Translations under genes and position numbers: made by a program
Notes under the pieces: model-generated
The model's database searches: none
What the model was told of the DNA's origin: nothing
What the model saw: only the letters and a program-made list of their open reading frames with translations
DNA from: Pseudomonas furukawaii
GTDB lineage: Bacteria; Pseudomonadota; Gammaproteobacteria; Pseudomonadales; Pseudomonadaceae
Assembly (NCBI RefSeq): GCF_002355475.1
Contig: NZ_AP014862.1
Coordinates: forward strand, 4,712,001-4,776,000
Length of the DNA: 64,000 nt
Reading direction: 5' to 3'
In this document: piece after piece, positions 2,272 to 11,119 of the stretch
Numbering within the stretch: the first letter of the stretch is position 1
How the letters are laid out: every line of letters begins with the position of its first letter

Positions 2272-2287
2272 TGGCATATCGCTTGCT
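2272..2287 (+). promoter_or_regulatory. Sigma-54 promoter of nasST
   Basis: TGGCATA-TCGC-TTGCT matches the -24/-12 consensus TGGCACG-N4-TTGCW, with GG at 2273-2274, ten bases, then GC at 2285-2286. It lies 13 bp past the ppnN stop and would start transcription near 2298, just ahead of the hairpin leader. Sigma-54 (NtrC-type) control is the known pattern for nitrate assimilation genes in Pseudomonas. Confidence 0.75.
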
Positions 2288-2308
2288 AACGCTCCCGCCC
2301 TAGAGCCC

Positions 2309-2390
2309 GCTCCAACGGCGGAGTCGGTTCACAGACGATGGCGTCGTTTCCCGCCACCACCTGCAGGGTGGCGGGAGCGGCGCCTTTTTC
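2309..2390 (+). promoter_or_regulatory. nasST leader: hexaloop hairpin(s) and overlapping terminator (putative NasT antitermination leader)
   Basis: Hairpin 1 is CTCC (2310-2313), loop AACGGC (2314-2319), GGAG (2320-2323), which fits the ANTAR hexaloop rule of A at loop position 1 and G at position 4. A second short hairpin, GAC-GATGGC-GTC (2334-2345), deviates at loop position 1. A strong terminator follows: CCCGCCACC (2350-2358) pairs with GGTGGCGGG (2367-2375), extended by 2340-2345 with 2379-2384, then five T. The terminator 5' arm overlaps hairpin 2. The terminator is clear. NasT autocontrol is inference, and the second hairpin is the weak point. Confidence 0.6.
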
Positions 2391-2412
2391 GTTCAGTGGT
2401 GGGACAAACGAC

Positions 2413-3636
2413 ATGACCGACACGAGTTGCACCCGTAACGACAACCTCGCCTGGGTCGCGGGCAGCGATGCCCCGGAAAAGGGCAGGGTGAACCTGGGCT
2501 TCATGCCCCTCTCCGACGCCGCCTCGCTGATCGTCGCGGCCACCCAGGGCTTCGCCCAGCCCTACGGCCTGACCCTGGAACTGAAACGGCAGACCTCCTG
2601 GGCCGGCCTGCGCGACCGGCTGCAGAGCGGTGAGCTGGACGCCGCGCACGCCCTCTACGGCCAGGTCTACGGCACCCACCTGGGCCTGGGCGGCGCCCCC
2701 ACCGAAATGGCGATCCTCATGGGGCTGTGCCAGAACGGCCAGGCGATCAACCTGTGCGAGCCCCTGCGCCGCGCCGGCGTGACGAACGCCGACGCGCTCG
2801 TCGCCCAGGTGCGCCAACGGGGTGCGAAGCTGACCTTCGCCCAGACCTTTCCCACCGGCACCCACGCCATGTGGCTCAACTACTGGCTGGCGGCCCACGG
2901 CATCCACCCGCTGGAAGAGGTCAACACCCTGGTGCTGCCCCCGGCGCAGATGGTCCGGCACCTGCGCAGCGGCCAGATCGACGGTTTCTGCGCCGGAGGT
3001 CCCTGGGGCGCGCTGGCGGTGGACGAGAAGCAGGGGTTCACCCTGGCCACCAGCCAGATGATCTGGCCCGACCATCCGGAGAAGGTCCTCGCCTGCACCC
3101 GCGCCTTCGCCGAGCGCTACCCCAACACCGCCCGCGCCCTGACCATGGCGGTGCTGGAAGCCAGCCGTTTCATCGATGCCAGCGACGAGAACCGGCGCGG
3201 CACCGCCCGGCTCATCAGCGGCGGCGAATACCTCGACGCGCCGCTGTCGGCCATCGAGCCGCGCTTCCTCGGGCTCTACGAGGACGGCCTCGGCTACGCC
3301 TGGCGCGACGCCCATCCGCTGCGCTTCTTCGCCGGTGGCGAGGCGACCATGCCCTGGCTGTCGGACGGCATCTGGTTCATGACCCAATTCCGCCGCTGGG
3401 GGCTGCTCAAGGAGGACCCGGACTACCTCGGCGTGGCCCGCCAGGTGCACCAGCTCGAAGGCTACCGGGAAGCGGCCGAGGCCCTGGGCATCGAGGTTCC
3501 GGCACGGCCCATGCGCAGCTCCCGGCTGTTCGACGGCCGGGTCTGGGACGGCAGCGACCCGGCCGGCTACGCCCGCAGCTTCGCCGTCCACGCCCACCCC
3601 TCGCTCACTCCCCTTGCCGCCGACGCCAGGAGTTGA
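2413..3636 (+). CDS. nasS: NasS nitrate/nitrite sensor of the NasST system
   Basis: This 407-residue protein belongs to the NrtA/CmpA nitrate-binding family and is strongly similar over its length to the NrtA encoded at 4575-5858. It lacks a Tat or Sec signal, so it should stay in the cytoplasm. NasS is known to bind NasT when nitrate is absent and to release it when nitrate or nitrite binds. Family signatures include SDAPEKG near residue 20, TFPTGTHAMW near residue 143 and WPDHPEKVL in the middle. The start at 2413 (ATG after GGTGGGA) avoids the upstream open frame that runs back into the leader. nasT follows 4 bp after the stop. Confidence 0.9.
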   Translation: MTDTSCTRNDNLAWVAGSDAPEKGRVNLGFMPLSDAASLIVAATQGFAQPYGLTLELKRQTSWAGLRDRLQSGELDAAHALYGQVYGTHLGLGGAPTEMAILMGLCQNGQAINLCEPLRRAGVTNADALVAQVRQRGAKLTFAQTFPTGTHAMWLNYWLAAHGIHPLEEVNTLVLPPAQMVRHLRSGQIDGFCAGGPWGALAVDEKQGFTLATSQMIWPDHPEKVLACTRAFAERYPNTARALTMAVLEASRFIDASDENRRGTARLISGGEYLDAPLSAIEPRFLGLYEDGLGYAWRDAHPLRFFAGGEATMPWLSDGIWFMTQFRRWGLLKEDPDYLGVARQVHQLEGYREAAEALGIEVPARPMRSSRLFDGRVWDGSDPAGYARSFAVHAHPSLTPLAADARS

Positions 3637-3640
3637 CCCC

Positions 3641-4219
3641 ATGCTTCGCATCTTCCTGATCAACGACACACCGAAGACCGCCGGCCGCCTGGCCGATGCC
3701 CTGGTCGAGGCGGGCTTCGCCGTCGTCGAAGAGACCGGCCTGACCCTCGACCTGGCCGAGCGCATCCTGGCCGCGAGCGCCGACGTGGTGCTGATCGACA
3801 CCGAATCCGCCGGCCGCGACATGATGGAACAGGTGGTGATGGTGAGCCGCGACCAGCCCCGTCCCATCGTCATGTTCACCAACGACCACGACCCCGGCCT
3901 GATGCGCCAGGCGATTCGCGCCGGGGTCAGCGCCTACGTGGTCGAAGGCATCCAGGCCGAGCGCCTGCGACCGATCCTCGAGGTGGCGATGGCCCGCTTC
4001 GAGGCCGACCAGGCCCTGCATGCGCGGCTGCTGGAACGGGACAGCCAGCTGGCCGAGCGCAAGCGCATCGAACAGGCCAAGGGCGTGCTGATGAAGATGA
4101 AGAATTGCGACGAGGAGGCGGCCTACACCCTGATGCGTCGCCAGGCCATGGGGCGTCAGCAGCGACTGATCCAGGTGGCCGAGCAGATCATCGCCACCCA
4201 CGAGATGCTCGGCGCCTGA
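3641..4219 (+). CDS. nasT: NasT, ANTAR-domain response regulator/antiterminator
   Basis: The 192-residue protein has an N-terminal receiver-like domain (residues 1-120, with Asp53 in LIDTES) and a C-terminal ANTAR RNA-binding domain beginning near residue 139 (RKRIEQAKGVLM, then EEAAYTLMRRQAM). ANTAR proteins bind a pair of hairpins with hexanucleotide loops and stop a downstream terminator from forming. Candidate targets are the leaders at 2309-2390, 4455-4552 and 7853-7941. It is cotranscribed with nasS, which holds it inactive without nitrate. The ATG at 3641 is preceded by CAGGAG. It is about the usual NasT length and looks intact. Confidence 0.93.
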   Translation: MLRIFLINDTPKTAGRLADALVEAGFAVVEETGLTLDLAERILAASADVVLIDTESAGRDMMEQVVMVSRDQPRPIVMFTNDHDPGLMRQAIRAGVSAYVVEGIQAERLRPILEVAMARFEADQALHARLLERDSQLAERKRIEQAKGVLMKMKNCDEEAAYTLMRRQAMGRQQRLIQVAEQIIATHEMLGA

Positions 4220-4414
4220 CCTGCGCCTGCGGGGCACAGGCCAGCGGCGGCCAGCGAACCAAAACCGCTCAGGCGGCGCGCCCTTCGCACAGATATCGCC
4301 CACCCCCGCCGGCCGCACCTGTGTCCGCATCCGGCGGGCAACTGCTTGATTCAGAAGGCGATAACCACCGAATCGAAGGCACATCGGGGCGACCCGCGGG
4401 CGGGCGGCGAAAAC

Positions 4415-4430
4415 TGGCAAGACCTTTGCA
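4415..4430 (+). promoter_or_regulatory. Sigma-54 promoter of nrtABC
   Basis: TGGCAAG-ACCT-TTGCA is a near-perfect -24/-12 element (GG at 4416-4417, GC at 4428-4429). It sits 145 bp before the nrtA start and directly ahead of the hexaloop leader, so transcription would begin near 4441. I could not identify convincing NtrC sites upstream in 4220-4414. Confidence 0.85.
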
Positions 4431-4454
4431 AAACCACCTGCGGATTCCTGCGTA

Positions 4455-4552
4455 GCGCACCAACGGCGGTGGGCCGCGGATCACGGACAACGGCGTCCGT
4501 CAGAGCTCCATCCCCTTGTGCGGGAGCTCTGGCGTACGCCGTTTTTGTTTTT
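4455..4552 (+). promoter_or_regulatory. nrtA leader: tandem hexaloop hairpins overlapping an intrinsic terminator (NasT target)
   Basis: Hairpin 1 is CACC-AACGGC-GGTG (4458-4471), with two more pairs after a G.G mismatch. Hairpin 2 is ACGGAC-AACGGC-GTCCGT (4483-4500). The two loops are identical and obey the ANTAR rule (A1, G4). The terminator uses ACGGCGT (4490-4496) with ACGCCGT (4536-4542) and CAGAGCTCC (4501-4509) with GGAGCTCTG (4523-4531), followed by TTTTTGTTTTTG. Its 5' arm lies inside hairpin 2, so the two folds exclude each other: NasT bound to the hexaloops would prevent termination. This is the textbook layout of NasT-type attenuators. Confidence 0.88.
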
Positions 4553-4574: not shown

Positions 4575-5858
4575 ATGAGCGAACGTGATTCCAAAGACCC
4601 GATCAACAACAGCCGCCGCAACTTCCTCAAGCACTCCATCGCCATCGCCGGCACCGTCGGCGGCGTCGCCGCCCTCGGGCTCTCGGCCCCCGGCTTCCTG
4701 CGCAGCGCCGCCTGGGCCGCCGGCTCCGATGCACCGGAAAAGGCCGCCCTCAAGGTCGGTTTCATTCCGCTGACCGACTGCGCGTCGGTGGTGGTGGCCG
4801 CCACCCAGGGTTTCGCCGCCAAGTACGGCCTCAGCATCACCCCCAGCAAGGAAGCCTCCTGGGCGGGCGTGCGCGACAAGCTCAACACCGGCGAGCTGGA
4901 TGCCTCCCATGTGCTCTACGGCATGATGTACGGCAGCCAGCTCGGCGTGGCCGGCCCGCAGAAGGACATGGCGGTGCTCATGGGCCTGAACCAGAACGGC
5001 CAGGCCATCACCCTGTCCCGCCAGCTCCGGGAAGCCGGAGTGACCAACGGCGAACAGCTCGCCGCCCACGTCAAACAGTCCGCCAAACCCCTGACCTTCG
5101 CCCAGACCTTCCCCACCGGCACCCACGCCATGTGGCTCTACTACTGGCTGGCCAGCCACGGCATCAACCCCATGACCGACGTCAAGACCATCACCGTGCC
5201 GCCGCCGCAGATGGTCGCCAACATGCGCGTGGGCAACATGGACGGCTTCTGCGTCGGCGAACCCTGGGGCGCACGGGCCATCTTCGACAAGATCGGCTTC
5301 ACCGCCACCACCTCCCAGCAGATCTGGGCGGACCACCCGGAGAAGGTGCTGGGCTGTTCCCGCGCCTTCGTCGAACAGAACCCCAACACCGCCCGCGCCC
5401 TGGTGATGGCCCTGCTGGACGCCAGCCGCTTCATCGAGGCCAGCGAGGAGAACAAGAAGGCCACCGCCAAGCTGATCGCCGGCAAGGCCTACGTGAACGC
5501 CCCGGTGCAGGTGATCGAGCAACGCTTCCTCGGCAACTACGAGGACGGCCTCGGCAACAGCTGGCAGGACAAGCACGCCATGGCCTTCTGCAAGGACTGC
5601 CAGGTGAACTTCCCTTACCTCTCCGACGGCATGTGGTTCATGACCCAGTTCAAGCGCTGGGGCCTGATCAAGCAGGACCCTGACTACGCCGCCGTGGCCG
5701 CCCAGGTGAACCAGACCAAGCTGTTCAGCGAAGCGGCCAGTGCCCTCGGCCTGCCGGTTCCGGCCAGCCAGATGCGCGGCAGCACCCTGATGGACGGCAC
5801 GCTGTGGGACGGCTCCAACCCGGCCGCCTACGCCCAATCCTTCGCCATCAAGGCCTGA
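4575..5858 (+). CDS. nrtA: NrtA periplasmic nitrate-binding protein of the ABC nitrate transporter
   Basis: The 427-residue protein has a Tat signal (twin Arg 14-15 in SRRNFLKHS, hydrophobic stretch, AWA near residue 48) followed by the NrtA/CmpA substrate-binding fold. It captures nitrate in the periplasm and hands it to NrtB. It shares with NasS the SDAPEK, TFPTGTHAMW and ADHPEKVL segments. It is the first gene of nrtABC, behind a sigma-54 promoter and the NasT-type leader, so it should be expressed under nitrogen limitation with nitrate present. The start ATG at 4575 follows AGGACAG. Cyanate or bicarbonate binding is possible in the family, but the nasST context argues for nitrate. Confidence 0.92.
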   Translation: MSERDSKDPINNSRRNFLKHSIAIAGTVGGVAALGLSAPGFLRSAAWAAGSDAPEKAALKVGFIPLTDCASVVVAATQGFAAKYGLSITPSKEASWAGVRDKLNTGELDASHVLYGMMYGSQLGVAGPQKDMAVLMGLNQNGQAITLSRQLREAGVTNGEQLAAHVKQSAKPLTFAQTFPTGTHAMWLYYWLASHGINPMTDVKTITVPPPQMVANMRVGNMDGFCVGEPWGARAIFDKIGFTATTSQQIWADHPEKVLGCSRAFVEQNPNTARALVMALLDASRFIEASEENKKATAKLIAGKAYVNAPVQVIEQRFLGNYEDGLGNSWQDKHAMAFCKDCQVNFPYLSDGMWFMTQFKRWGLIKQDPDYAAVAAQVNQTKLFSEAASALGLPVPASQMRGSTLMDGTLWDGSNPAAYAQSFAIKA

Positions 5859-5872
5859 GCCAGGAGACCGCC

Positions 5873-6730
5873 ATGAATGCTCCCCTGAACACGCCATTGC
5901 CGGCAGCCTCCAGCCAGGTCCCCGACAGCGCCCGACGCCAGCCCCTGCCTGGCGCGGAGTTCCTGCGCAACCTGGCTCGCGCGCTGGTTCCACCGGCGCT
6001 CGGACTGCTGCTGTTCATCGGCCTCTGGGCCCTGGTGGCGGCACGCAGCGAAGGCCTGCCGGGGCCCGTGTCGACCTGGCACTCGGCGCTGGAACTCTTC
6101 GCCGACCCCTTCTACGACAACGGCCCCAACGACATGGGCATCGGCTGGAACATCCTGCATTCGCTGGGGCGGGTCGGCCTGGGCTTCGGCATGGCCGCGC
6201 TGGTGGGCATTCCGCTGGGCTTCGCCATCGGCCGCTTCGCCTTCCTGGCCGGCATGCTCTCGCCCATCATCAGCCTGCTGCGCCCGGTCTCGCCGCTGGC
6301 CTGGCTGCCCATCGGCCTGCTGGTGTTCGAGGCCGCCGGCCCGGCCTCGATCTGGGTGATCTTCATCAGCTCGATCTGGCCCATCATCCTCAACACCGCC
6401 GCCGGCGTGGCCAGCGTGCCGCAGGACTACATCAACGTGGCGCGGGTGCTGAAGCTCTCGGAGTTCAAGGTGCTCACGCGCATCCTCTTCCCCGCCGTGC
6501 TGCCGCACCTGATGACCGGCATCCGCCTGGCCATAGGCGTGGCCTGGCTGGTGATAGTCGCCGCCGAGATGCTCACCGGCGGCACCGGCCTCGGCTTCTG
6601 GGTGTGGGACGAATGGAACAACCTCAACGTCGAGCACATCCTCATCGCCATCATCATTGTCGGCCTGGTGGGCCTGGCCCTGGAACAGGGCCTGCTGTGG
6701 CTGGCCAAACGTTTCGACTACAGCAACTGA
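5873..6730 (+). CDS. nrtB: NrtB nitrate ABC transporter permease
   Basis: The 285-residue inner-membrane protein has a cytoplasmic proline-rich N-terminus, about six hydrophobic segments and the binding-protein-dependent permease loop in the region VPQDYINVARVLKLS, where it contacts the ATPase. Its family (NrtB/SsuC/TauC) forms a homodimeric channel. It starts 14 bp after the nrtA stop (CAGGAG before ATG 5873) and is cotranscribed with it. Length and motifs are normal. It should form the complex NrtA-NrtB2-NrtC2. Confidence 0.92.
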   Translation: MNAPLNTPLPAASSQVPDSARRQPLPGAEFLRNLARALVPPALGLLLFIGLWALVAARSEGLPGPVSTWHSALELFADPFYDNGPNDMGIGWNILHSLGRVGLGFGMAALVGIPLGFAIGRFAFLAGMLSPIISLLRPVSPLAWLPIGLLVFEAAGPASIWVIFISSIWPIILNTAAGVASVPQDYINVARVLKLSEFKVLTRILFPAVLPHLMTGIRLAIGVAWLVIVAAEMLTGGTGLGFWVWDEWNNLNVEHILIAIIIVGLVGLALEQGLLWLAKRFDYSN

Positions 6731-6738
6731 ACATTCCC

Positions 6739-6793
6739 GTGGAGCGAGCGAGCTCGCTCGCGAATGCGCTTCGCGCGCTGGGCTCGCTCCTAC
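6739..6793. repeat. REP element inside the nrtB-nrtC gap
   Basis: GGAGCGAGCGAGCTCGCTCGCGAA followed by an inverted GGGCTCGCTCCTAC forms the usual Pseudomonas REP inverted pair. It fills most of the 82-bp gap between nrtB and nrtC. Within a transcript it would fold into a strong hairpin, which may affect mRNA stability or the NrtB:NrtC ratio; that effect is inference. Confidence 0.75.
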
Positions 6794-6812
6794 CAGGAAC
6801 AGGAGAAACCTG

Positions 6813-7604
6813 ATGGACAAGTTCGTCGAGCTGACCGGCGTCAGCAAGCACTTCGATACCCGCAAGGGCCGCTTCCAGGCCCTCAGCGACGTCAACCTGC
6901 GCATCGCCCGAGGCGAGTTCGTCTCGCTGATCGGCCATTCCGGCTGTGGCAAGTCCACCGTGCTCAACCTCATCGCCGGCCTGCTCTCCCCCAGCGAGGG
7001 CGGGCTGATCTGCAACGGCCGGGAGATCGACGGTCCCGGCCCGGATCGCGCCGTGGTGTTCCAGAACCACAGCCTGCTGCCCTGGATGACCTGCTTCGGC
7101 AATGTCCACCTGGCGGTGGAAAAGGTCTTCGGCGGCCGCGAGAACAAGGCGCGGCTCAAGGAGCGCACGGCGGCGGCGCTGCAGATGGTCGGCCTGGACC
7201 ACGCGGCGCACAAGCATCCCGGCGAGATCTCCGGCGGCATGAAGCAGCGTGTGGGCATCGCCCGCGCCCTGGCCATGGAACCCAAGGTGCTGCTGATGGA
7301 CGAGCCCTTCGGCGCCCTCGACGCCCTGACCCGCGCGCACCTCCAGGACGAGCTGCTGCGCATCGTCGGCCAGACCCGGAGCACCGTGGTGATGGTCACC
7401 CATGACGTGGACGAGGCGGTGCTGCTCTCCGACCGCATCGTGATGATGACCAACGGCCCGGCCGCCACCGTCGGCGACATCCTGCGGGTGGAGCTGCCAC
7501 GCCCACGGGACCGCCTGGCCCTGGCCAACGACGCCCGCTACCACGAGTACCGCACCGCCGTGCTGGAGTTCCTCTACCAGCGCCAGCGTCGCCCGGCGGC
7601 CTGA
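6813..7604 (+). CDS. nrtC: Nitrate ABC transporter ATP-binding subunit (NrtC/NrtD type)
   Basis: The 263-residue ATPase has Walker A GHSGCGKST (41-49), the ABC signature ISGGMKQR (about 139-146), Walker B VLLMDEPFGALD (about 160-171) and the switch His in THD (about 196). It lacks the C-terminal nitrate-binding domain that cyanobacterial NrtC carries, so by architecture it is closer to NrtD. It energises nitrate uptake with NrtA and NrtB. It starts 82 bp after nrtB, the gap being occupied by a REP element, with AGGAG ahead of the ATG. A weak terminator follows at 7633. Confidence 0.9.
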   Translation: MDKFVELTGVSKHFDTRKGRFQALSDVNLRIARGEFVSLIGHSGCGKSTVLNLIAGLLSPSEGGLICNGREIDGPGPDRAVVFQNHSLLPWMTCFGNVHLAVEKVFGGRENKARLKERTAAALQMVGLDHAAHKHPGEISGGMKQRVGIARALAMEPKVLLMDEPFGALDALTRAHLQDELLRIVGQTRSTVVMVTHDVDEAVLLSDRIVMMTNGPAATVGDILRVELPRPRDRLALANDARYHEYRTAVLEFLYQRQRRPAA

Positions 7605-7632
7605 TCCCTTCCCCTCCCCGCCCCTTGCAACA

Positions 7633-7660
7633 GCCCGGCCTCCGCGCCGGGCTTCTGCTT
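7633..7660 (+). terminator. Intrinsic terminator after nrtC
   Basis: GCCCGGC (7633-7639) pairs with GCCGGGC (7646-7652) around a six-base loop, followed by TTCTGCTTT. The stem is strong and the U-tract imperfect. It separates nrtABC from the porin unit, which has its own promoter. Confidence 0.6.
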
Positions 7661-7821
7661 TCCAGGGGGCATCTCTCGCCTGCCTCCATGCCCCATGCAG
7701 GGGCTCTTTCCGGCGGCTTCGCACCCTGCCAATGCAAGCGGCGACGGCAAGGTCCGGGGCGCTGCCACACAAACGCCATCGATCCAATAAAAGCCCACTA
7801 AAATCAAAGGCTTGAGCATTC

Positions 7822-7838
7822 TGGCACAGTGCCTGCTT
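7822..7838 (+). promoter_or_regulatory. Sigma-54 promoter of the porin gene
   Basis: TGGCACAGTGCCTGCTT has GG at 7823-7824 and GC at 7835-7836, ten bases apart as required, and TGGCAC matches the -24 box exactly. Transcription would begin near 7848, just before the hexaloop leader. Confidence 0.75.
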
Positions 7839-7852
7839 GGACCCTCCCCGGT

Positions 7853-7941
7853 CAGCACAACGGCGTGTCTGCCACCCAACCGACAACGACGTCGCGAAGC
7901 CCCCTCGCCATCATGAGCACGGGGCCGCGACGTTTTTTTTT
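7853..7941 (+). promoter_or_regulatory. Porin leader: tandem hexaloop hairpins overlapping an intrinsic terminator (NasT target)
   Basis: Hairpin 1 is CAC-AACGGC-GTG (7856-7867), extended by CAG/CTG past a bulged T. Hairpin 2 is CGAC-AACGAC-GTCG (7881-7894). Both loops have A1 and G4. The terminator pairs ACGTCGCG (7889-7896) with CGCGACGT (7926-7933) and GCCCC (7899-7903) with GGGGC (7921-7925), followed by nine T. Its 5' arm overlaps hairpin 2, as in the nrtA leader. The same design and the same first loop place the porin in the NasT regulon. Confidence 0.85.
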
Positions 7942-7968
7942 GCGCTTTCCACACTAAGGAAGACCGCT

Positions 7969-9216
7969 ATGCACCCGCTCAAGCCCGCCCTGCTGTCGCT
8001 GGCCGTTGCCGCTACCAGTCACGCCGCCCTGGCCGAAGAGGCTCCCAGCACGCTGTTCACCGAGGGCAAGCCCATCCTCGACGCCCGCTACCGCTACGAA
8101 CACGTCGACCAGGACAACAACCTGCGCCACGCCAACGCCCAGACCCTGCGTACCCGCGTCGGCTTCCAGAGCGGCAAGTGGTACGGCCTCTCGGGCCTGG
8201 TGGAGGTGGACAACGTCAGCCGCCTGGGCGACGCCGCCTACAACAGCAGCCGCAACGGCCAGACCGATTACGCCATGGTGGTCGACCCCGACGGCACGGA
8301 AGTCAACCAGGCCCTGCTGCGCTACGACCAGGCCTTCGGCAGCGCCGTGCTGGGGCGCCAGCGCATCAACCTGGACAACCAGCGCTTCGTCGGCGGTGTC
8401 GCCTGGCGCCAGAACGAGCAGACCTACGACGCCGCCCTCGGCCAGCTCAAGCCCCTCGACGGCCTGACCCTGACCTACGCCTACCTGGACAACATCAACA
8501 CCATCTTCGGCCCGGACAACGGCCGCTTCGACAACCGCACCAACCCGGCCAACATCGAAGGCCACAGCCACCTGTTCAACGCCCAGTACCAGGTCATGCC
8601 GGCACTCACGGTGACCGCCTACGGCTACCTGCTCGGCCTGGACAATATCGCCGTGACCGCCGCCTCCCCCCTGGGCAGCCTCTCCAGCGCCACTCGCGGG
8701 CTGCGCCTGAACGGTGCGCTGGGAGGCTTCAGCTATGCGCTGGAGTACGCCCGCCAGCAGGACTACGCCGACAACCCCCAGGACCTGGACAGCGAGTACT
8801 ACCTGGCGGAACTGGGCTATGTCCTCAAGGGCGTGCAGCTCAAGGGCGGCTACGAGGTGCTGGGGGGCGACAGCGGCCCGGGCAACCGTGCGTTCCAGAC
8901 GCCGCTGGCGACCAAGCACCTGTTCCAGGGCTGGGCCGACCAGTTCCTCACCACGCCGGCCGACGGCATCGAGGACGCCTACCTGGGCTTCACCGCGCCC
9001 CTGGCCGGCGGCAGCCTGCAGGCCTGGTACCACGACTTCGCCAGCGAGCGGGGCGGCGACCGCTACGGCGACGAGATCGACCTGTCCTATACCCGGCCGA
9101 TCCCCGGGGTGAAGGGCCTGGTCGGCATGCTCAAGTACGCGCACTACGACTCGGCTGACCGGACCCGTACCCTGGACACCGAGAAGTTCTGGGCGCAACT
9201 GCAGTACAGCTACTGA
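7969..9216 (+). CDS. Outer-membrane porin (alginate-export-like beta-barrel), probable nitrate-regulon porin
   Basis: The 415-residue protein starts with a Sec signal peptide ending near ALA-EE (residue 23). The mature part is rich in alternating aromatic/polar beta-strand segments and ends in LQYSY, with a C-terminal aromatic residue as needed for barrel assembly. The strand pattern resembles the alginate-export (AlgE-like) porin family common in Pseudomonas. Function is inferred from control: it has a sigma-54 promoter and a NasT-type leader like nrtABC, so it may carry nitrate, or another nitrogen source, across the outer membrane. The AGGAAG before ATG 7969 supports the start. Confidence 0.8.
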
Positions 9217-9314: not shown

Positions 9315-10448
9315 ATGAACGAGATCCACCCTCAAGAGAAGCACCGCCTCGGGCGGCTGTTCGAGCCGGGCATCGCCTTGCTGGCGGCCACCGGCGCCGG
9401 CCTCTGGCTGCCCCTGGGCCTGGCCCTCTGCGCGACCGCCAGCGCCAGCGACGGAGCGCAGCCGGTCGCCCTCGGGCTGCTGGCCTGCAGCCTCTACCTG
9501 GCCGTGGCCCTGAGGCTGCTGGAACAGCGGCAGCGGCACCTGGAAAGGTTCTGGCTCGATGAGCTGGCCCACCTGCTGGGCCGCTCGCCAGGTTGCGATC
9601 CGGCCACCCTGCTGGTGACCTGCGACCAGCAATTGCGCGCAGCCGAGCGGTTGCAGAGCGAGGTCCGGTTCTCCAGCCAGGCCCTCGAACAACTGGCGCA
9701 GACGGCCCATGTCCAGGGCTGCGAACAGAACCAGCGGGTCAACATGATCGCCGCCGCCAGCGAACAGATCGAACGCAGCCTCTCCGGCGTCGACGAACTG
9801 GCCGGCAACGCCCGCGTCGCCTTCGCCGCCGCCCTGGGCCAGGGCGAGGACGGCTGCCGCGCGGCGGAGAAGCTGGGCCAGGGCATGGGCGCCATTCACG
9901 ACAGCCTCGGCGATACGGCCGACGCCGTGAAACACCTGCTGCACAGCACGGCCCTGGTGGAGCAATCGGTGCAGGGCATCCAGAACCTGGCCAAGCAGAC
10001 CCAGTTGCTGGCCCTCAATGCCTCCATCGAAGCGGCCCGCGCCGGCGAACAGGGACGGGGCTTCGCCGTGGTGGCCGACGAGGTCCGGCGCATGGCCGGC
10101 GCCACCGATGAAACCACCCGCGGCATCACCGCCGCGGCCACGGCGATCGCGGCGGCGGTCGGCCAGGTGGAGCGCGAGGTCAGCCATCACCGCGAGTTGC
10201 TGGAGCAGGGCAGCGAAGAAAGCGGCCGGCTGGCGGAGAGCCTGGACCAGCTGGCGCGCAAGAGCCGGGACAACCTGCAGCGCTTCGGCAGCATGCAGCA
10301 GGCCCTGGGTGAACATCACCAGGCGAACCAGGCCCTGTGCGAGCAGCTGCAACAGATCAGCGACAGCCTGGAGACCCAGAGCGGCCAGACCCGCAGCCTG
10401 CACGACCTGACCCGCTACCTGTCCCGCCTCGCCGGGGAGGTGGCGTGA
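9315..10448 (+). CDS. Methyl-accepting chemotaxis-type signalling protein without a periplasmic ligand domain
   Basis: The 377-residue protein has two hydrophobic segments close together near the N-terminus (about residues 15-35 and 50-65), leaving almost no periplasmic loop. A cytoplasmic coiled coil follows with the MCP hairpin tip, [20 protein letters not shown], starting near residue 229. The tip is conserved, so it should contact CheA/CheW. There is no PAS or HAMP domain that I can see. Input may come through the gene downstream, whose start codon overlaps this stop by one base. The location beside the nitrate genes is suggestive but not proof of a nitrogen signal. Confidence 0.8.
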
Positions 10449-11119
10449 TGTTCCTGTCGCTCTCGCTGATCGTCGCCGGGCTCCTGGCCGCCTGCACGCT
10501 CGCCTGGGGCCTCACCCGGCGCCGGCGGCAGCGCCTGCTGCGGACCCTGGGCCAGGAGCTGCTGCTGGGACTCGAACTGATGCAGGGCGTCCAGCGCCAC
10601 CGTGCCCTGGGCGGCCAGGACGGGCCGGGGGCGGCGCAGGACCGCCGGCAGTTGGCCGAGCGCCTGGCCCCGGCCTGGCAGGCCTGGCCGGAGGCCAGCC
10701 ACCTGAGGATCTGGACGAGCCTGCGGCAATCCCCGGCGGACTTCGACGGCCACTGCCGCCTCGTGGAAAACCTGCTGGCCCGCATCCGCTTCCTGGAGCT
10801 GCATCTGTGCCGGTTGCGGCTGCGCGCGCCCGCCATCGCCGATCGCGGCTGGCAGGTGGAAGACCTGGGCCGCCTGCGTGGCCTGTCGATCCGCGCCGCC
10901 GCGCGGCAGGAGTGCCCACTGGAACTGCGCATCCAGCTGCAGTACCTGCACGACCGCTTGCTCGAAGGCGCCGATGGCGAACTGCGCGACGCCCTGGGGC
11001 GACTGGCGCCCGACCTCTTCAGCACGCGCGGCCTGAGCGTCCCGCCCGAGCAGCTCTACGCGCTGTTCACCCCCCTGATCGACCAGCGCATCGAAGCCTT
11101 GCGCAGCAGCCTGGGCTGA
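10448..11119 (+). CDS. Membrane-anchored helical protein of unknown function, coupled to the MCP gene
   Basis: The 223-residue protein has one N-terminal transmembrane segment (about residues 3-22), then RRRRQR, then an almost wholly helical domain rich in Leu, Arg and Gln. The segment LMQGVQRHRALGG is faintly reminiscent of the first helix of NIT (nitrate/nitrite sensing) domains, but I cannot establish homology. Its ATG (10448) overlaps the TGA of the upstream MCP, implying translational coupling and probably a joint complex. It could be the sensory partner of that MCP. The family is not recognised with certainty. Confidence 0.7.
   Translation: MFLSLSLIVAGLLAACTLAWGLTRRRRQRLLRTLGQELLLGLELMQGVQRHRALGGQDGPGAAQDRRQLAERLAPAWQAWPEASHLRIWTSLRQSPADFDGHCRLVENLLARIRFLELHLCRLRLRAPAIADRGWQVEDLGRLRGLSIRAAARQECPLELRIQLQYLHDRLLEGADGELRDALGRLAPDLFSTRGLSVPPEQLYALFTPLIDQRIEALRSSLG

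Follow-up and report, generated by a model that had tools for sequence, protein, structure and literature searches.

A porin gene in Pseudomonas furukawaii is preceded by an RNA leader of the kind associated with ANTAR antitermination proteins. We consider it likely that this gene belongs to the NasT regulon and that its product is an outer-membrane nitrate channel, a judgement that is weighted towards the regulatory core of the proposal. The gene is located in a window of 64 kb (the whole stretch of DNA that was analysed) out of the 6.2-Mb genome, labelled G000, in which the gene order is ppnN, nasS, nasT, nrtA, nrtB, nrtC, porin, a gene for a protein with an MCP signalling domain, a gene for an all-helical protein and an MFS gene (Table 1).

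The crossing of the outer membrane by nitrate is usually ascribed to general porins. The porin described here is a candidate for this step of nitrate uptake, its gene being preceded in some lineages by the RNA switch known from nitrate assimilation and in others by an oxygen-type box beside nitrate-respiration genes. ANTAR antitermination would thereby reach an outer-membrane protein, which suggests a possible function for porins that Pfam labels as alginate exporters. The listings and passages of open papers that were surveyed describe neither an ANTAR- or NasT-controlled porin nor a nitrate porin.

Table 1. Features of the region around the porin gene, numbered from the first nucleotide of the window.
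Feature	Position	Strand	Remarks
nasS leader	2272-2391	+	Sigma-54 core, P1 hexaloop AACGGC, terminator
nasS	2413-3636	+	NMT1_2 family; named from position and pairing with nasT
nasT	3641-4219	+	Receiver plus ANTAR domain
nrtA leader	4415-4552	+	GG-N10-GC, two AACGGC hexaloops, terminator
nrtA	4575-5858	+	Part of nitrate ABC transporter (4575-7604)
nrtB	5873-6730	+	Part of nitrate ABC transporter
nrtC	6813-7604	+	Part of nitrate ABC transporter
Terminator-like hairpin 3' of nrtC	7632-7653	+	Separates nrtABC from the porin unit
Possible NtrC-type dyad (weak)	7690-7704		GCCCC-N5-GGGGC, 5' of the sigma-54 core
Sigma-54 core promoter	7822-7837	+	GG-N10-GC
Hairpin P1	7850-7873	+	Hexaloop AACGGC (7859-7864); none of the eight pairs varies among 27 sequences
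Hairpin P2	7881-7894	+	Hexaloop AACGAC (7885-7890); overlaps the 5' arm of the terminator
Intrinsic terminator	7888-7941	+	Stem 7888-7934, T-run 7933-7941; compensatory stem changes
Porin gene	7969-9216	+	Pfam Alginate_exp (PF13372); predicted 18-strand barrel
MCP signalling-domain protein	9315-10448	+	Adjoins porin; Pfam recognises no sensory domain
All-helical protein	10448-11119	+	NIT-like by fold match; no Pfam match, no profile match

Architecture of the porin leader

The initial annotation had assigned to the porin gene a sigma-54 promoter of its own, followed by two hexaloop hairpins and a terminator arranged as in the leader of nrtA, and all of these elements are present. The promoter core reads TGGCACAGTGCCTGCT, wherein ten nucleotides separate the GG at 7823-7824 from the GC at 7835-7836. 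The two loops are closed by the stems GCAC/GTGT and CGAC/GTCG, respectively, and the terminator, initially placed at 7889-7933 plus nine T residues, pairs over 7888-7934 and carries its nine T residues at 7933-7941. The nrtA leader has the same build. There are only two matches to the stricter promoter pattern TGGCAY-N5-YTGCT in the 64-kb window, at 2272 in the nasS leader and at 7822 in the porin leader, compared with a mean of 0.23 in shuffled windows, of which 4 in 100 reached two. A transcription start 12 bases past the GC, at about position 7848, would place hairpin 1 at the 5' end of the RNA.

Both hairpins form when nucleotides 7846-7898 are folded alone, and hairpin 2 is displaced once the terminator is included in the fold. 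Thus P2 and the terminator, which share the 5' arm of the latter, appear to be mutually exclusive. The folding of the whole leader is stronger than that of shuffled sequences (z -2.76, 4 of 200 equally good), and the two-hairpin part alone folds no better than its shuffles (z 0.30, 117 of 200 equally good). A simple terminator scan, which overlooks the porin terminator because its loop limit is 8, found three terminator-like sites in the region, including the one 3' of nrtC, compared with a shuffle mean of 1.7; the same scan found no such site on the + strand between the porin and MCP genes.

Hexaloops that are targets of ANTAR proteins obey an A1/G4 rule (A-N-N-G-N-N). The porin leader carries two adjacent hairpins with loops of this form, the second of which excludes an intrinsic terminator with a T-run, and this is the architecture by which ANTAR leaders are recognized.

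Dyads upstream of the promoter were scored against the NtrC consensus. A 17-bp dyad at -134 has 3 of 12 mismatches, a degree of resemblance that shuffled sequences often yield. With up to 4 of 12 mismatches allowed, dyads are present at 21 of 21 loci, compared with 9.7 expected from mononucleotide shuffles, which likewise often yield them, and such dyads recur within one base of -102 in 13 of the 21 loci and within one base of -82 in 18. These recurrences are only suggestive of an NtrC site upstream of the porin promoter.

Conservation and relatives of the leader

There are 27 distinct sequences of the porin leader, collected with a sequence-specific pattern over the porin loci of relatives, and they are found only 5' of the porin gene. 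All of them, including that of the window, were used to build a covariance model termed R1. The model gives 98.4 bits to the window leader, which is itself among its sequences, and at most 21.1 bits to 800 kb of arbitrary control sequence. It finds matches of at least 79 bits at 20 of 80 named porin loci (1.47 Mb including the window), each directly 5' of the porin. Because all 20 loci, or identical copies of them, contributed to the model, their scores are not independent, and it is their position that counts as independent evidence. Of 15 weaker matches with E-values up to 1, 10 correspond to leaders of nasS or nrtA (17-41 bits, highest before nrtA at L117), and five (E 0.25-0.88) do not.

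Under strict filters, R1 exceeds 80 bits in 12 of 119 genomes of the family, and in 11 of these it is located directly before the porin. The twelfth genome (G077) has no porin match. Its porin is largely deleted, leaving, between the leader and a PilJ gene, a 26-codon frame whose end matches the porin C-terminus. In G009, a second leader (68.8 bits) precedes a duplicate of the PilJ gene. The initial annotation had proposed a search for the leader upstream of orthologous porins, and had held that orthologues without a leader and far from nitrate genes would speak against its proposal. The search came out in favour of the proposal, since the leader is kept before orthologues that are 62-89% identical, also at loci whose available flanks show no nitrate marker gene.

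The leader is nearly invariant upstream of these orthologues. Hairpin 1 is identical at every pair in the 27 sequences, and among its unpaired positions only a base in the loop and another in a bulge differ, each in a single sequence. Because both hairpins are constant throughout the Pseudomonas set, pair counts cannot be informative for either; the outer pair of P2 is absent in 20 of the 27 sequences. There is evidence of compensatory change in the terminator stem, with 36 double-changed cells compared with 14.2 in shuffles. A sigma-54-like core precedes all 20 of the named leaders of the R1 type.

Eight additional leaders were called by eye. Six of these (L032-L037, before porins 48-52% identical) have a sigma-54 core, a terminator and a second hexaloop of the form GG[AG]C-AAAGGC-GTCC, and those of L036 and L037 have a clear first hexaloop as well (AACGGC and AATGGT). 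The remaining two, variants found at L021 and L030, lack the complete loop pair and depart from the two-hairpin rule. The Porticoccus-type loci L094, L099, L105, L109 and L110 carry sigma-54-like cores and terminators before porin-nasT-nasS/nrtA; they lack a clear first hexaloop, were rejected as leader loci and are classed as 'none' in the tree discussed below. A home-made grammar of hexaloops and terminators recovered both loops before just three named porins out of 80 (L045, L046 and L105) because it disallowed bulged terminators, and it was replaced by the covariance model.

Rfam provides a score for the porin leader from a model built without porin leaders. The narK RNA family (RF03032) matches nucleotides 7823-7895 with 43.5 bits, compared with a gathering score of 43.2 (E 6.7e-5 for the window). 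This cut-off is passed at three sites in the genome, namely the porin leader and the regions before a narK-type transporter and a nitrate-reductase-like frame, and there are sub-threshold matches at a second nasS, the window nasS and the window nrtA. The P11 family (RF00625) matches before nirB of P. furukawaii with 98.8 bits (L010:1481-1617). It also weakly matches the nrtA leader (window 4403-4540, 21.9 bits) and the porin leaders of L036 and L037 (28.6 and 27.2 bits, cut-off 70). The R1 model also recovers the nitrate-reductase leader (36.2 bits) and the nasS leader (29.9 bits), and its match to the nrtA leader is weak (21.6 bits, E 0.085). The narK RNA and P11 families are apparently two Rfam entries for one kind of leader. 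The P11 'sRNA' of Rfam is reportedly the RNA from work on learned avoidance in C. elegans. One account describes P11 as a regulator of a nitrogen assimilation operon (PMC12080996).

There are seven leaders of the porin-leader kind in the genome, found before the porin, nrtA, two nasS genes, the narK-type transporter, the nitrate reductase and nirB. All seven have the GG-N10-GC core and a P1 loop of the form A-N-N-G-N-N, and their P1 stems differ. Thus, the stems vary while the loop rule is kept, and variation of this form is not available from the porin leaders by themselves, since they are invariant. The rule for the second loop is kept in four leaders (porin, nrtA, transporter and nirB). In both nasS leaders the second loop is GATGGC, departing from the A-first rule, and in the nitrate-reductase leader the stem of the second hairpin is broken after one pair. 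The nasS leader of the window, which the initial annotation had not named, follows the build of the porin leader less fully. With a sigma-54 core and a NasT-type leader in front of nasS, the regulator pair probably controls its own expression.

Regulators and genomic neighbourhood

A NasT relative is encoded by 83 of the 119 genomes, including 25 of the 29 that bear the porin. Of the four porin-bearing genomes without NasT, three (G039, G046 and G105) encode a NasR-type NIT+ANTAR protein and have porins to which a leader was assigned, and the fourth (G074) lacks both an ANTAR match and a leader before its porin. Leader-scored porins of 18 other genomes are accompanied by NasT in 15 cases and by a NasR-type protein in three. 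Because NasT is common and NasR was sought in six genomes only, this co-occurrence indicates consistency and is not a strong test. There are two NasT genes in P. furukawaii (G000:C1:2157663-2158235 and the window nasT), which are 76% identical and are each located behind a nasS-type gene. The genomes with two NasT genes (G000, G011, G070, G078, G086 and G094) are those with NasT within about 5 kb of a leader-bearing porin. As judged from sequence, regulation of the porin by NasT or NasR is highly probable, and control by NasT is strongly supported.

A second mode of control is indicated by the FNR/ANR consensus TTGAY-N4-RTCAA. Allowing at most one mismatch within 250 bases 5' of the porin, a box of this type precedes 28 of 59 porins without an R1 leader (18 exact), compared with a mean of 1.3 and a maximum of 5 in 200 mononucleotide shuffles; L083, whose sequence begins inside the gene, was excluded from the count. 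The box precedes none of the 20 porins with an R1 leader (0.35 in shuffles). A quick tree built from 107 porin proteins, excluding three named loci shorter than 300 residues, contains 39 with the leader, 32 with the box, none with both and 36 with neither, the last being counted against our best explanation. The Pseudomonadaceae and Xanthomonadaceae part of the tree, in which three Moraxellaceae rows are also placed, requires at least seven changes between leader and box over 59 rows, counted after removal of its 11 'none' rows and of the 37 rows from the rest of the tree. A single record from Pseudomonas sp. 8AS holds both kinds, with a leader at L054 and a box at L057, the latter beside narG, narK and narXL.

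Nitrate marker genes, comprising assimilation, nar and nap genes with nirS, norB and nosZ outside the set, are located near 31 of the 80 named porins and in none of 40 arbitrary 20-kb stretches from eight family genomes, including that of the window. Thresholds were fixed, and flanks extended up to 10 kb, some being ended by the contig. No marker was found within the available flanks at the other 49 loci. Markers are present at 4 of the 20 R1-type leader loci and absent from the available flanks of 16, which argues that the leader travels with the porin and that linkage alone is not the explanation. Among the 60 named loci without an R1 leader, 27 carry a marker nearby, in the form of narG/narK/narXL, narGHJI, nasT-nasS-nrt, nrtABC or napA. 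The few annotated loci without markers include a Pseudoxanthomonas locus with anaerobic-metabolism genes, the arrangement DGC-porin-TauE-NnrS, a locus adjoining an arsenic gene and a leader-bearing locus whose neighbours are unrelated genes.

The order nrtABC-porin is also found in G028. Downstream of the leader, G105 and G046 have the series porin-nrtA-nrtB-nrtC. G039 has a relative of the MCP gene, then a NIT-like relative, the porin and a nitrate MFS transporter that is 84% identical to that of P. furukawaii. There is a separate narK RNA match for this transporter, with a sub-threshold score of 39.7 bits. Near P. alcaligenes-type porins, an assignment of neighbours to molybdate transport and nitrate reductase (25-38% identity) was dropped after NCBIfam annotation of L054. 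The neighbours there are an ornithine carbamoyltransferase, a PotA-like ATPase and PhzF, and a formate-dehydrogenase- or NasC-like protein falls below every NCBIfam cut-off. P. alcaligenes-type loci are therefore counted as being without nitrate markers.

The porin, its partners and its proposed function

The porin has 415 residues and matches PF13372 with 31.2 bits (cut-off 25.2), and all 15 of its examined homologues match this family at E 0.01. Among the named relatives found, the closest comes from Pseudomonas resinovorans (89% identity), and a sequence search of the PDB at E 0.001 yielded no relative. The structural model has 18 strands (mean pLDDT 73.7, pTM 0.74), and its best 50 PDB matches are mostly Occ channels, which rank at the top, followed by AlgE, with query TM-scores of 0.47-0.62. 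The porin shares the 18-strand barrel and the Pfam family with AlgE, but it scores only 31 bits whereas a separate AlgE-type gene of the genome scores 334.5 bits, and its identification as the AlgE orthologue was rejected. Many acidic residues and a number of arginines, such as R40, R42, R61, R63, R130, R132, R139, R147 and R246, are invariant in 15 aligned homologues, and these arginines would suit an anion pore.

The MCP-domain and helical-protein genes are found behind the porin in the window and in L045-L048, and relatives of both precede the porin in L021. The two best PDB fold matches of the helical protein are the two chains of NasR (Foldseek, probability 0.99), with E-values of 0.025 and 0.051 that alone are not significant, and profile comparison with NasR gave 0.5% probability. 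The modelled fold makes it possible that the helical protein is a sensory partner of the MCP protein. Perhaps this MCP and NIT-like pair (9315-11119) constitutes a split nitrate chemoreceptor.

At 20 of the 80 named loci, 13 with the leader and seven without, the porin is followed by a gene for a tandem PilJ protein, which has two PF13675 stretches and a signal-like N-terminus. Both copies of its PilJ motif resemble the N-box [IVL]-[ND]-x-A-G-x-Q-R-M-L-[ST]-Q reported for the nitrate chemoreceptor McpN (PMC6381276). The strict N-box is present in 7 of 33 PilJ rows (some loci being represented twice), always in the first copy, and the others differ from the published pattern in having S for A, or M first. 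Thus, the porin-linked protein shares with McpN the PilJ domain and a near-identical N-box, but unlike McpN as described in that source it is predicted to be secreted, tandem and without a signalling domain. Tandem PilJ genes with two near-N-box motifs are also located at L129:4629-6580 and L130:3315-4094.

A plausible course of regulation begins with NtrC-activated sigma-54 RNA polymerase, which, given the -24/-12 core, would start at about 7848 when ammonium is short. Sequence and folding predict that the terminator forms by default and that transcription would stop at the T-run, leaving the porin unread. Elsewhere, NasS is reported to hold NasT until nitrate or nitrite releases it, and NasT to bind leader RNA (PMC3795266, PMC6759348); for NasR, a two-hairpin rule and nitrate-dependent read-through have been described (PMC7496416). 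Here, nitrate or nitrite would free NasT from NasS, and the freed NasT would hold both hexaloop hairpins, block the terminator and allow read-through into the porin, perhaps reaching the two genes downstream of it. The porin would then pass nitrate, and probably nitrite, across the outer membrane toward NrtABC. Expression only with nitrate present and ammonium short, as initially proposed, would follow from the known logic of NasST and of sigma-54 with NtrC.

The ANTAR attenuators NasR-nasF, NasT-nasA and nosR, and EutV likewise combine a pair of A-N-N-G hexaloop hairpins, of which the second overlaps an intrinsic terminator, with a cognate ANTAR protein in the genome; P. furukawaii has two ANTAR/NasT genes. 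In contrast to these systems, the putative target here is an outer-membrane porin and not an enzyme, an inner-membrane transporter or a regulator. The match of the porin leader to narK RNA begins at the sigma-54 core and extends across hairpin 2, but the downstream gene is a porin, the score is barely above the cut-off and the Rfam entry line is silent on ANTAR control. The nirB leader of P. furukawaii ties P11 to the same kind of leader, whereas the P11 matches to porin leaders are just weak ones, at two relatives. OpdQ of P. aeruginosa is also a porin raised by nitrate, but it belongs to the OprD family and is induced through NarXL, and the abstract of that report does not mention antitermination (PMC4694141). 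In a Bradyrhizobium nasT mutant, one outer-membrane protein is listed among the raised, not the lowered, genes (PMC6759348).

We regard it as fairly likely that the porin is a pore serving nitrate or nitrite. A porin within the NasT regulon might instead handle another solute or direction, such as nitrite release, general anion entry or uptake of another oxyanion. Nitrate is indicated by regulation and neighbourhood only; part of the family adjoins arsenic, anaerobic or other genes, and Pfam groups the protein with alginate exporters. We nevertheless consider this reading unlikely, since the genes that recur beside the porin encode nitrate transporters, nitrate reductases, NarXL and PilJ proteins with motifs close to the nitrate-binding N-box. 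Nitrate is a small anion that may pass general porins, and a dedicated pore is therefore not obviously needed.

The remaining alternatives concern the leader. It might chiefly yield a short terminated RNA with a role of its own, as claimed for P11, with porin control being secondary. The invariance of hairpin 1 outside its pairs and the P11 matches to the nirB leader and, weakly, to two porin leaders would fit such an RNA, but we consider this quite improbable because every match above 80 bits in the 119 genomes is directly before a porin, except in G077. A leader that is part of the nas cluster, precedes the porin by placement only and has no function for it would agree with the porin adjoining nrtABC in the window. 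This is very improbable in view of the marker-free flanks of 16 of the 20 named leader loci, the compensatory changes in the terminator and the separate terminator-like hairpin after nrtC. A mere chance resemblance of the porin leader would accord with an Rfam score only 0.3 bits above the cut-off, but conservation at the same place in many relatives, and the control maximum given above for R1, make it negligible.

A broader interpretation can be entertained, which we hold only tentatively and at somewhat below even confidence. The porin family might provide dedicated nitrate entry together with a nitrate-binding partner, and might have been switched repeatedly between the control of assimilation and that of respiration. 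The partner would be the secreted tandem PilJ protein in many Pseudomonas and the MCP and NIT-like proteins in P. furukawaii. The switch would be between sigma-54 with NasT or NasR antitermination and an FNR/ANR box with narXL-narK-narG.

Two other structured RNAs were encountered near porin genes. A guanidine-I riboswitch (92.7 bits) is located at L037:3230-3330, about 0.6 kb before the porin start and on the opposite strand. There is also a TwoAYGGAY RNA match at L030:24-88 (46.1 bits, cut-off 43), near a porin that is scored as leader-bearing.
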